Assembly (NCBI GenBank): GCA_903889245.1
Contig: CAISWQ010000067.1
Span: 1 to 64,000, forward strand
Source: an uncultured Lentisphaerota bacterium
GTDB lineage: Bacteria; Verrucomicrobiota; Kiritimatiellia; CAIQIC01
DNA length: 64,000 nt
Direction of reading: 5' to 3'
In this document: positions 1-32,667 of the stretch, in pieces
How the letters are laid out: the number at the start of each line of letters is the position of its first letter
Numbering within the stretch: the first letter of the stretch is position 1
Notes under the pieces: generated by a model
Told to the model about the DNA's origin: nothing
The model's database searches: none
What the model saw: the letters and a program-made list of their open reading frames with translations, nothing else
Made by a program: the position numbers and the translations under genes

Positions 1-328
1 ATGGCGTACCTTGGCAGCGCGCGGCGCGCCGCCGCCAAGTTTTGTCACAACTTGGCAGAGGAATGGCGTGCCTTGGCAGCGCGCGGCGTGCCGCCGCCAA
101 GTTTTGGCGCAGCTTGGCAGCGGAATGGCGTGCCTTGGCTTAAAACCGTATTTCTTGGCGGCGGAATGGCGTGCCTTGGCAGCGCGCGGCGTGCCGCCGC
201 CAAGTTTTGTCACAACTTGGCAGAGGAACGCCGCCGGCTGCCAAGAAATCGTATTTCTTGGCGGCGGTACGCGGCAACTTGGCGGCGGTTCGTCCGCCGC
301 TGCCAAGCTGGGGGAAAGACAAGCCAAG
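1..328. repeat. Helically phased CTTGG/CCAAG repeat array at the left edge
   Basis: The stretch holds no convincing gene. CTTGG starts at 10, 51, 72, 113, 134, 154, 175, 216, 257 and 278, and CCAAG at 35, 97, 200, 241, 303 and 324. Distances between successive like-oriented half-sites are 20-21 or 41 bp, and the pattern recurs every 62 bp (for example 10, 72, 134 and 154, 216, 278). Facing half-sites form hairpin-capable inverted repeats: GCCAAGTT with AACTTGGC around 45 and 210, and GCCAAGAAAT with ATTTCTTGGC around 251. Small open frames across it are by-products of its composition. The array may continue left of the window. It looks related to the 31-bp-phased palindromes elsewhere, since the last step (324 to 355) is 31 bp. 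Confidence 0.85.
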
Positions 329-368
329 GGGCGCGCTTTTTGGGCGGGGGTTTTCCAAGGCTGGGACG
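320..368. repeat. Phased palindrome cluster, two degenerate copies
   Basis: Two weak copies of the TTTTCCAAGGCTTGGAAAA family have centres at 329 and 360, 31 bp apart. They join the left-edge array to the 3' end of the cupin gene. Only the left arm (TTTTCCAAGG) is well kept in the second copy. Confidence 0.6.
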
Positions 369-376
369 AGGGGCGG

Positions 377-856
377 TCAGGTGCTGAAAAGTGCTTTCAG
401 CTTGGCGAGGTAGGCGGGGGCGGCGGGCGTGCCCTCGGCGGGGGCCCAGGCGCCTTTCTCGTGCGGCTGGAGCGGAGCATAGGGGCCGGCCTTGGCCTCG
501 AAAATCATCGAGCCGGGCGCGAGCATGAGGGACGTGTGGAACTGCCCGGCGGGGATGGTGACGGCGACGTTCGCGCCACCGGCCTCGAGCAGCACGGTCT
601 GCGTGACGTTCCCCTGCGCGTCAAAGAACACGACGCCCATCTGGCCGCGGATCATCACCATCGTTTCATCCTTCGCCGGGTCGGCGTGGCAGTGCGGCTG
701 GATGTAGGTGTCCGGCTCGCCGGCGTTATAGAGGCGGTTGCACGGCGACTGCTCGCTGTAGTGCACGTTGAGGTTCTTGCGGCGGCGCGGCGCGGCCGCG
801 GCGGCGGCGTTGAGTTCGTCGAGCATCTGCTGGGTGGTGATTTTGATCTGGTGCAT
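377..856 (-). CDS. WbuC-type cupin-fold metalloprotein
   Basis: This 159-residue cupin has a first metal motif H55-x-H57 with E64 and a later H107 in PAGQFHT, the usual 3-His/1-Glu metal site. The pattern with an N-terminal helix and CNR segment resembles the WbuC family of small cupins found beside surface-sugar genes; the family's chemistry is not settled. The start is the ATG ending at 856; the frame stays open further upstream into the neighbouring gene, but homology-like sequence begins at MHQIK. It lies 59 bp downstream of the ThuA gene on the same strand, so the two are probably cotranscribed. The substrate cannot be read from the sequence. A generic cupin of unrelated function is the alternative. 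Confidence 0.8.
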   Translation of the reverse strand: MHQIKITTQQMLDELNAAAAAAPRRRKNLNVHYSEQSPCNRLYNAGEPDTYIQPHCHADPAKDETMVMIRGQMGVVFFDAQGNVTQTVLLEAGGANVAVTIPAGQFHTSLMLAPGSMIFEAKAGPYAPLQPHEKGAWAPAEGTPAAPAYLAKLKALFST

Positions 857-2930: not shown

Positions 2931-3517
2931 TTACTTTTCTCTCCGGCACCTTGATCGAGAAGCAGCCAACGCGCATCGTGCTCGAAGTCCATGGCGTGGG
3001 CTACGAAGTCTTCATCCCCTTGAGCAGCTTCGACCGGTTACCGGTGGAGAATGCGCCGTGCCGGGTCCTGACGCACGACCATCTGCGCGAGGACGCCCAC
3101 CAGCTCTATGGCTTCATCACTGTGGCCGAGCGCGACCTCTTCGAGATGCTACTTGGCATCAGCGGCATCGGGCCGAAGACGGCCTTGAGTGCGTTGAGCG
3201 GTTTGAGCGTGCGCGACCTGAAGCAGGCGGTGGTCGAGGGCGACCTGAAACGGTTGAGTTCGATCAGCGGCATCGGCAAGAAGACCGCCGAACGCATCGT
3301 GGTGGAACTACGCCACAAGTTGAGCGCAGGCGAGGCGCTGGAGGTGGTCGCCGGCGCTCCGGAGACCACCGACCTGCGCACGCGCGACGCGATGCTCGCG
3401 CTGATTTCGCTGGGCTATAAGCAGGCCGACGCCCAGCAGCGCGTGCGCGCCGTGCTGCCCAAGCTCAAGCCGACCGCCACGGTCGAGGATGTGGTGCGCG
3501 CCGCGCTGGCCGGATGA
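2927..3517 (+). CDS. ruvA: Holliday junction branch-migration protein RuvA
   Basis: At 196 residues this is the normal length for RuvA, which binds four-way junctions as a tetramer and loads the RuvB motor. The N-terminal OB fold (about 1-62) starts MITFLSGTL and includes VEVHGVGYEV-like sequence. Two helix-hairpin-helix motifs follow, GISGIGPKTAL (near 78) and ISGIGKKTAE (near 113), and a C-terminal domain III after an acidic linker (about 150-196) that contacts RuvB. The start overlaps the stop of the upstream lipoprotein gene by four bases. ruvB and ruvC are not in the window. Confidence 0.97.
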   Translation: MITFLSGTLIEKQPTRIVLEVHGVGYEVFIPLSSFDRLPVENAPCRVLTHDHLREDAHQLYGFITVAERDLFEMLLGISGIGPKTALSALSGLSVRDLKQAVVEGDLKRLSSISGIGKKTAERIVVELRHKLSAGEALEVVAGAPETTDLRTRDAMLALISLGYKQADAQQRVRAVLPKLKPTATVEDVVRAALAG

Positions 3518-11527: not shown

Positions 11528-11979
11528 TGCCGGCCGATGAGGCCTTCGACCTCGGAGAGGAACTGGCTGACATCGCGGAAGCGGCGGTAAACGGAGGCGA
11601 AGCGGACGTAAGCGACTTCGTCGAGCTTTTCGAGCCGGTCCATAACCTTGCGGCCGATGACGGTGGAGGGCACCTCGCGATCGTACTCGCTTTCGAGCTC
11701 GGTAATGACCGCATCCACAAGCCCTTCGATCTGCTGCGTGCTGATGTTGCGCTTGCCACAGGCGATCTCGACCGCGCGCAATAGTTTCTTGCGGTCGAAC
11801 TCCTCATGACGGCCGTCACGTTTGATGATACGGAGCGTGGCCTTGACGACTTCCTCGTAGGTGGTAAAGCGATAGGAGCAGTTGAGGCAGACACGGCGGC
11901 GGCGGATCACATCGCCATTCCGCACCGAGCGGCTGTCAATGACCTTGTCATCCACATGCTCGCATTTTGGGCAGCGCAT
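11524..11979 (-). CDS. nrdR: Transcriptional repressor NrdR
   Basis: At 151 residues this is the standard length. The N-terminal zinc ribbon has Cys3, Cys6, Cys31 and Cys34 (MRCPKC and CLNC) and the basic RRRR segment that binds NrdR boxes. An ATP-cone domain follows (about 48-138), sensing dATP/ATP to repress ribonucleotide reductase genes. The ATG ending at 11979 gives the conserved MRCPKC start; the frame extends seven codons further to 12000 but without family support. No nrdA or nrdB is in the window. Confidence 0.96.
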   Translation of the reverse strand: MRCPKCEHVDDKVIDSRSVRNGDVIRRRRVCLNCSYRFTTYEEVVKATLRIIKRDGRHEEFDRKKLLRAVEIACGKRNISTQQIEGLVDAVITELESEYDREVPSTVIGRKVMDRLEKLDEVAYVRFASVYRRFRDVSQFLSEVEGLIGRQ

Positions 11980-28608: not shown

Positions 28609-29700
28609 ATGCAACGCCGTATTCAGTTCCAAATCCCGCGTGTCTTCGCCGGCGCGACCCTGCTCGATTTCCTCGTGCGCCGCTTCCCCTACCACGATGC
28701 AGCCGGCTGGGGCGAACGCATCGCGCAGTGCCGTGTCCACGTCGCCGGCCGTGCCGCCGCGGCGGGGCAGGTGCTGGAAGTTGGGAATCTCGTCGAGTAT
28801 CTCGCCAGCGACATCCCCGAGCCGCGTGTCAACCTCGACGTGGCCGTGATCCATGAGGATGCCGACCTGCTCGTGGTCAACAAACCCGCGAACCTGCCGA
28901 GCCATCCGGGCGGCCGCTACTTCCAGCACACGCTCTGGGCCGTGCTCAAGCACCGCTACGGGCTGGAGCAGCCGATCCTCATCAACCGCCTCGACCGCGA
29001 GACCTCCGGCCTGACGCTCGTCGCGAAGCACGAGAAGGCCGCCAAGTTTCTGCGCGCCGAGTTCAGCACGCGGCGTGTGGAGAAGAAATACCTCGCGCTT
29101 GTGGAGGGCGTCTTCCCGGCGCGGCTCGAGGCGCGTGGTCTGCTCGCACCCGACCCCGCCTCGCCGGTGAAGAAGAAAATGAAATTCACGGCTGCCGAAG
29201 CCGCCACTCCCGAGCAGGCCAGTCAGTGGTGCGAGACGATTTTCCAAGGCTTGGAAACGGTGGGTGCTGGTTTTTCCAAGGCTTGGAAAAATTCAACTCC
29301 GGAAGTTCCAAGCCTTGGAAAAAACGACGCGGAAATTTCCAAGCCTTGGAAAACCCTTGGTCCCGTCAGCCTCGTGGAGGCGCTGCCGCTGACCGGGCGC
29401 CTGCACCAGTTGCGCGCGACGCTGCACGCGCTCGGCTTCCCGGTCGTCGGCGACAAGCTCTATGGCCACGATCCGGAATTCTTCACGCGCTTCTGCCAGG
29501 ACCAGTTGACCGAGGATGACCGCGCGCGGTTGCGCCTCGACCGGCAGGCACTCCACGCCGCCAGCCTGCGCATCCAGCATCCGCGTACCAAACGCACGCT
29601 CGAACTGGAGGTGCCCCTGCCCGACGATATGGCCGCGTTGTTCGCCCAACTGCGCGCCGTCAGCGTTCCACCAACTGCTCATCCAGCGCCGCCGGCGTGA
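28609..29700 (+). CDS. RluA-family pseudouridine synthase carrying an in-frame repeat insertion
   Basis: The 363-residue enzyme isomerises uridine to pseudouridine in RNA. The catalytic motif NRLDRETSG is present with Asp129, preceded by LLVVNKPANLPSHPGG and followed by KKYLALVEG and LTGRLHQLRATLHALG. An N-terminal segment (about 1-60) could be S4-like. Residues about 211-249 are not family sequence: they are the translation of four palindromic repeats with their spacers, inserted in frame just before the final core strands (VSLVEAL). The reading frame survives, and both flanks are conserved. Substrate RNA and position cannot be named. The 3' end overlaps the convergent HAD gene by 41 bp. An upstream GTG is an alternative start. 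Confidence 0.9.
   Translation: MQRRIQFQIPRVFAGATLLDFLVRRFPYHDAAGWGERIAQCRVHVAGRAAAAGQVLEVGNLVEYLASDIPEPRVNLDVAVIHEDADLLVVNKPANLPSHPGGRYFQHTLWAVLKHRYGLEQPILINRLDRETSGLTLVAKHEKAAKFLRAEFSTRRVEKKYLALVEGVFPARLEARGLLAPDPASPVKKKMKFTAAEAATPEQASQWCETIFQGLETVGAGFSKAWKNSTPEVPSLGKNDAEISKPWKTLGPVSLVEALPLTGRLHQLRATLHALGFPVVGDKLYGHDPEFFTRFCQDQLTEDDRARLRLDRQALHAASLRIQHPRTKRTLELEVPLPDDMAALFAQLRAVSVPPTAHPAPPA
29239..29354. repeat. Four phased palindromes inside the RluA-family coding sequence
   Basis: Copies are centred at 29249, 29281, 29313 and 29344 (steps 32, 32 and 31 bp). Two have a G centre and two a C centre. As the steps are not multiples of three, successive copies are read in different frames, giving FQGLE, FSKAWK, PSLGK and ISKPWK peptides. 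None creates a stop codon. Confidence 0.95.
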
Positions 29701-32553: not shown

Positions 32554-32667
32554 CTTTTCCAAGGATTGGAAAGCCACGGGCCGTTTTTTCCAAGGCTTGG
32601 AAAAATCCCGCCCGCATTTTCCAAGCCCTGGAAAATTCCGGCCCTATTTTTCCAAGCCGCGGAAACC
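32554..32667. repeat. Phased palindrome cluster, four copies at exactly 31-bp steps
   Basis: Centres are at 32564, 32595, 32626 and 32657, each step exactly 31 bp. The spacers are GC-rich and different. The cluster sits in the divergent region between rtcB and the catabolic cluster, just upstream of the predicted promoter at 32727. Confidence 0.93.

Follow-up and report, generated by a model that had tools for sequence, protein, structure and literature searches.

A two-turn array of CTTGGC sites at two loci of an uncultured Lentisphaerota genome and its junction with a dispersed palindrome family

Introduction

Multi-site operators and centromere-like arrays of the ParR or ParB type consist of many short sites placed at integral helical turns, with free spacers between them, and are bound cooperatively. 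Plasmid iterons are 17–22 bp long and are also bound cooperatively, a half-turn displacement abolishing the cooperativity, and the iteron origins cited in that work contain two to seven direct repeats (PMC4980987). Among the proteins that bind BIMEs are IHF and gyrase, and in Stenotrophomonas the length of the inter-REP segment varies substantially (PMC2817692).

Here we describe an array of short sites at the left edge of a window of 64,000 nucleotides (the whole stretch of DNA that was analyzed) from an uncultured Lentisphaerota bacterium of the class Kiritimatiellia. A first-pass annotation, made from the sequence alone, had noted CTTGG/CCAAG half-sites here, stepping by 20–21, 41, or 62 bp, and had proposed that they might be an ancestral or specialized form of a dispersed family with a 31-bp period.

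Results

An array of 9-bp sites in a two-turn register

The first base of the window is also the first base of contig C67 of a draft genome of 5.26 Mb in 125 contigs. All ten CTTGG positions that had been annotated were recovered exactly (10, 51, 72, 113, 134, 154, 175, 216, 257, and 278), and CCAAG was found at 35, 97, 200, 241, 303, 324, and 355. Positions 1–328 hold 16 half-sites; when this segment was dinucleotide-shuffled 5000 times, the mean was 1.15 and the highest count 6, while other 328-bp stretches sampled in the window held at most nine. Tandem Repeats Finder likewise picked up the proposed 62-bp repeat of the motif group (period 62 at 1–139, 92% match), together with a period of 103 bp, i.e., 62 + 41, at 51–267 (85%).

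The repeat unit is a 9-mer, CTTGGCRGC in one orientation and GCYGCCAAG in the other, with both orientations falling on the same nine positions of the register. These 9-bp sites, whose outer half is GC-rich, are centered every 20.67 bp, which corresponds to two turns at 10.33 bp per turn; the best-fitting period was 20.65–20.70 bp in C67 and in contig C124 (see below) alike. Spacings of two, four, and six helical turns, as first suggested, were thus borne out, with the unit refined to a 9-bp site every 20.67 bp. Between sites lie spacers of 11–12 bp of varied sequence, some units deviate from the 9-mer (the unit at 134 reads CTTGGCTTA), and forward and reverse units follow each other without strict alternation.

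10–359, no strand assigned: array in the 20.67-bp register, from the 9-mer layout and period fit
10, 31, 51, 72, 93, 113, 134, 154, 175, 196, 216, 237, 257, 278, 299, 320, 340: starts of the array units, forward units starting CTTGGC(A/G)GC and reverse units GC(C/T)GCCAAG, the last two (320 and 340) degenerate
1–139, plus strand: 62-bp tandem unit in 2.2 copies, each of three 20.67-bp sub-units in the order forward, forward, reverse (Tandem Repeats Finder)

Autocorrelation of the five-mers, the check put forward with the initial proposal, was weak at 10.33 bp in C67 (power 1.3) despite the regular geometry, because a 4-bp offset separates the two five-mers, CTTGG and CCAAG; it disappears when the 9-mer register is used. 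A coding origin was considered and rejected: since 62 and 41 are not multiples of three, the tandem is not coding, and no gene was called in 1–376 (gene calls were made with a simple codon-usage script on the draft genome).

The array breaks the assembly between recD2 and wbuC

In three congeneric genomes, recD2 (plus strand) and wbuC (minus strand) are adjacent, 14–97 bp apart. Here, the two genes are on separate contigs: recD2 is on C124, whose end is an array of this kind, while wbuC follows the array on C67, and the last 68 bp of C124 are identical to window positions 225–292. Based on this synteny and sequence identity, a single locus has very probably been split at the repeat, with its left part on C124 and its right part on C67. 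The leftward extension suggested at the outset, for which C67 offers no further sequence, is thereby supplied by C124. The 68 bp may be present either once, in variant strains, or twice, in a longer array. A 208-aa open reading frame without Pfam match lies between recD2 and a small RNA described below (piece L007 of C124, 2422–3048, plus strand).

225–292, plus strand: 68 bp identical to the end of C124, the assembly break inside the array (sequence comparison)
377–856, minus strand: WbuC-like cupin gene, convergent to the array, beside recD2 in three congeneric genomes; its only Pfam match is DUF6016

A diverged second array on C28 lies in the same kind of module

Searching the rest of the genome, as had also been suggested, revealed a homologous array on contig C28 (51320–51720, minus strand) that has diverged but keeps the same register and shares the upstream flank. 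Hence the array is not simply three 62-bp copies unrelated to any other locus, the case named at the outset as counting against the proposal. The C28 array is about 80–82% identical to C124 where pieces of the two align, and 67% identical to C67 when compared as a whole. The register is retained over 17 units in C67, 14 in C124, and 11–12 in the C28 copy; differences in unit number between C124/C67 and C28 amount to whole registers (62 and 41 bp), and aligned units show only ±1 indels. Site and spacing are kept between array copies while the spacer sequences vary.

113–377, plus strand: gapped homology to C28:51564–51320, ending at 377

Both loci have the same order of parts, i.e., a 113-bp block, a nonaligning spacer, an AT-rich stretch, then the array, and finally a member of the dispersed TTTTCCAAGGCTTGGA palindrome family, where the right-hand part of this order at the recD2-wbuC locus was taken from C67. 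The 113-bp block is 85% identical between loci and contains a promoter-like sequence as well as a hairpin that ends with a T-run. The following spacer measures 327 bp in C124 and 173 bp in C28, with no alignment between the two. The AT-rich stretch beside the array is 82% identical, and homology between the loci stops after the terminal palindrome. The gene contexts are unrelated, since the C28 array precedes a gene for a DUF2959 lipoprotein and the C67 side has recD2 and wbuC.

Outside this genome the array was found neither by DNA similarity in 37 relatives nor by pattern in 55 relatives, and its absence from the congeners argues against long-term conservation. Triples of CTTGGC at 20–21 bp do match in relatives, and these matches were set aside since those outside this genome were coding-like when judged by eye (e.g., lysine/alanine-rich). 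A 52-base pattern of the AT-rich flank had no match in GTDB genomes. A plasmid, phage, or viral origin was likewise rejected, the array having no match in 72,556 plasmids, 50,697 phages, or viral contigs. Under a strict test, no other 20/21-bp run of the 9-mer was found outside C67 in 0.71 Mb of the genome. Rfam matches in the window were limited to two tRNAs, and C124 gave only sub-threshold matches, which we took as chance.

Cores diverge less than spacers between array copies

When C124/C67 were compared with C28, differences were fewest in a 9-bp window placed at the CTTGGC core (5–6/28) and most frequent at the opposite phase (20/28). Among selected unit pairs, in which one C28 unit was used twice, differences affected 15/90 core and 39/110 spacer positions (p = 0.004). 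Over all aligned columns of C124 and C28, the corresponding numbers were 11/90 (12%) and 24/106 (23%; p = 0.064), and the true register gave the lowest value. These results are suggestive, though not proof, of constraint on the core sites. The 62-bp copies of C67 show 92% identity with their spacers included in the comparison; recent tandem duplication alone can thus explain much of the regularity, and local tandem duplication does contribute to it.

A candidate small RNA lies beside both arrays

The 113-bp block upstream of both arrays holds a candidate small RNA conserved across Kiritimatiellia. By similarity search it was found in 21 of 56 genomes and in 16 genera, although a few of the weakest matches lie in query sequence flanking the RNA. 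A 29-base pattern of it matched 32 stretches of GTDB genomes, nearly all labeled Kiritimatiellia or by older names; public records list the relatives that carry it as Kiritimatiellae, Lentisphaerae, Verrucomicrobia, or PVC bacteria. The 41 distinct sequences have a common block, GGG.TTCC.CA.CCC.ACCTCCTTG, although the pattern used to gather them included this core, so that its conservation is in part built in. The inner stem covaries (GC 35, UA 3, CG 2, and AU 1), and the outer stem shows changes on both sides in eight pairs. Many copies have hexamers resembling TTGA...-N17-TA...T just upstream and a T-rich stretch downstream, and for the C28 copy a fold of −36 kcal/mol (z −4.8) is predicted. 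The segment ACCUCCUU resembles the 16S rRNA anti-Shine-Dalgarno sequence. Rfam gave no match above threshold, making the neighboring RNA a candidate for a Kiritimatiellia-wide family without Rfam match, about 65 nt long, with two nested covarying stems and a conserved ACCUCCUUG segment. The genome carries five strong copies, of which two accompany the arrays.

L007 (C124) 3172–3284, plus strand, and L008 (C28) 11850–11963, minus strand: small-RNA block beside the arrays

The array ends in register in a dispersed palindrome

The dispersed TTTTCCAAGNNTTGGAAAA family has the consensus TTTTCCAAG(g/c)CTTGGAAAA, a 19-bp abutting palindrome. At one mismatch, TTTTCCAAGNNNTGGAAAA gave 1321 forward matches in this genome and none in a reversed control; since a palindromic match counts once per strand, the number of places is below the strand sum. 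The palindrome was present in 27/27 relatives sampled from the order and was patchy elsewhere in the class. In the 0.71 Mb of the genome covered by our context statistics, 178 of 198 pairs closer than 150 bp were exactly 31 or 32 bp apart, and 60 of 356 units lay inside called genes. Information content is mostly 1–2 bits in palindrome columns and mostly 0–0.4 bit in spacer columns. A fixed spacing length combined with free spacer sequence fits protein sites on one face of the helix, as in a protein-bound lattice. The rarer spacings of 42, 52, 53, and 94 bp also fit helical phasing; they carry no weight, however, because four 42-bp steps come from one cluster and several 62/63-bp steps hold a degenerate middle unit.

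1820–1920, no strand assigned: nearest dispersed-family cluster, with 31/32-bp spacing, for comparison
351–369, no strand assigned: degenerate dispersed-family palindrome TTTTCCAAGGCTGGGACGA (TTTTCCAAGGCTTGGACGA in the C28 copy), whose right half continues the array register

Clusters of this order-wide palindrome occur in the window at, e.g., 1820–1920, 29273–29353, and 32586–32665. They are found in 29–47% of intergenic regions of at least 40 bp and are densest between convergent genes. The preferred spacing is 31 bp in this genome (120/178) and 32 bp in the congener G001 (42 of 47 spacings on its contigs C5, C18, and C66). One cluster, TTTTCCAAGCCTCGGAA at C28:14730–14870, is spaced at 42 bp (four turns) and not at 31/32 bp, and a long palindrome variant with a common insert of about CCAGCCGAGCTTGCGAGACGGGCAGCCTTGCTGCCAACC between its halves is present in three similar copies (C47:84028, C47:88509, and C67:68845). 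We found no literature match for the family.

That the array runs into the dispersed family, as first noted, was confirmed at both loci, where a TTTTCCAAGG-CTTGGA palindrome has its right half at the last register position (361 in C67 and 445 in the C28 piece); array and family member are therefore physically and geometrically continuous. The 31-bp step from 324 to 355 on which that observation had been based does exist, but the CCAAG at 355 forms the left half of the palindrome at 351–369, and the register itself passes through 320, 340, and 361. Like the array, the family has a CTTGG/CCAAG core, whole-turn spacing, and free spacers, and it is fused to the array end; the 20.67-bp period, being two turns, agrees with this family trait. 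In contrast, the family consists of 19-bp palindromes every 31–32 bp with more than 1000 matches, whereas the array consists of single 9-bp sites every 20.67 bp at two loci. The array site and the dispersed half-site have only CTTGG in common (CTTGGCRGC versus CTTGGAAAA), and within the array only the terminal unit at 351–369 has TTTTCCAAG half-sites abutting as a 19-bp palindrome. A specialized form of the same element thus remains conceivable from the core, the helical spacing, and the fused end, although the outer half of the site differs. The array is unlikely to be ancestral: with the palindrome in every relative sampled from the order and the array in this genome only, it is most simply a younger, local form.

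Discussion

We tentatively interpret the array as a helically phased multi-site platform for a putative DNA-binding protein, a reading that we prefer while giving it somewhat less than an even chance. A 9-bp site, CTTGGCRGC in either orientation, would recur every 20.67 bp so that the two-turn register presents every site on the same side of the DNA, along which the protein may assemble cooperatively. The array would form part of a noncoding module of about 0.6–1 kb, made up of a small-RNA gene, an AT-rich stretch, the array, and a terminal palindrome, which appears to have been duplicated to two loci of this genome. Most likely, the protein that reads it would also read the dispersed TTTTCCAAGNNTTGGAAAA palindromes, which lie three turns apart, or would be a paralogue of their reader. 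Since the two loci have unrelated neighbors, local DNA organization or insulation between neighboring genes seems a better candidate role than regulation of a single gene. Directly observed are the phased sites, their occurrence at two loci, the order of parts within the module, and a junction with the palindrome that keeps the register. The nonalternating order of forward and reverse units is what one-sided sites, and not a string of hairpins, would give, and the reading is further supported by the register kept across the array copies, by the lower divergence of the cores, and by the dispersed family obeying the same rule of fixed spacing (31/32 bp) with free spacers. Against it, no binding protein for the array was identified, recent duplication can account for much of the regularity, the contrast between core and spacer is significant only for selected units, no array was found in the congeners, and the site has only CTTGG in common with the dispersed half-site.

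The main rival, which we regard as possible but on balance doubtful, is that this is nonfunctional intergenic repeat DNA, a REP-like inverted repeat that grew through slippage or unequal recombination in steps of 62 and 41 bp, in which case the register would simply follow from the duplication unit. The near-identity of the 62-bp copies through their spacers is what such amplification predicts, and many overlapping inverted repeats, the difference in copy number between loci, the assembly break, the restriction to one genome, and the convergent, gene-poor setting of the C67 locus all agree with it. It accounts less well for a register kept between two loci at roughly 80% identity, for spacers that diverge more than cores (weakly so over all aligned columns), and for a junction with the dispersed palindrome that is in register at both loci. 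Even if the array were mere expanded repeat DNA, this would still explain the contig break and caution against equating tandem regularity with regulation.

It is improbable, in our view, that the array acts as RNA, with transcribed inverted repeats forming a long hairpin that protects or terminates convergent transcripts. The predicted RNA of 1–330 folds at −191 kcal/mol, better than shuffles (z −5.8), which we counted against the platform reading; the inverted repeats reach 92 nt, and at the C67 locus the 3′ ends of the recD2-side and wbuC transcripts face each other. However, the C28 array lies upstream of the DUF2959 gene and not between convergent genes, the hairpins lack a following T-run, forward and reverse units do not alternate, and the pairing is redundant among repeats, as with any mixed-orientation repeat. 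Finally, a relic or cryptic replication or partition element, with the array as iterons beside an AT-rich unwinding region, is very improbable: although the 20–21-bp unit adjoins a T-rich stretch, neither locus yielded a rep or par gene, the loci are chromosomal and lie between ordinary genes, 11–17 or more units in both orientations contrast with two to seven direct repeats, and the plasmid and phage collections gave no match.

Returning to the phased protein platform, we consider unlikely, yet worth stating, its broadest extension, namely that this Kiritimatiellia order marks its intergenic DNA with hundreds to more than 1000 helically phased sites for a putative architectural protein, that this protein or a sibling of it assembles densely on the array, and that the module is coupled to a class-wide small RNA not in Rfam. 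If the lattice reading were true, the array would be a compact natural substrate for finding the reader of the dispersed palindromes, and a scarcely cultured class would possess a nucleoid-organizing or insulating system based on helical phasing and not on whole-repeat transposition.

Among known systems, REP/BIME elements, mobilized by RAYT transposases, resemble the dispersed family in being short intergenic palindromes of high copy number in regular clusters; the high copy number is seen in the family (1321 matches) and not in the array (two loci). The dispersed consensus, however, has no GTAG/CGTC head as in REPs with their imperfect stem, and while Stenotrophomonas BIMEs vary in segment length, here the length is fixed (31/32 bp, and 20.67 bp in the array) and the sequence varies. 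Y1 transposase matches, which through Y1_Tnp include non-RAYT members, number two weak ones in this genome (best E 1e-5) beside its 1321 palindrome matches, and 17 in genome G015 beside 25. Plasmid iteron origins have in common with the array 20–21-bp helix-phased repeats beside an AT-rich stretch, within the 17–22 bp of iterons. Unlike them, the array is of mixed orientation and not direct, has 11–17 or more units, is chromosomal, has no plasmid relative, and has no rep gene beside it, the neighbors being recD2, wbuC, the DUF2959 gene, a PEP-CTERM-type repeat protein, and the 208-aa open reading frame without Pfam match. ParR- and ParB-type arrays likewise combine numerous short sites, whole-turn spacing, and free spacers; they differ in that here no partition or regulator gene was identified beside the array, whose reader is putative.
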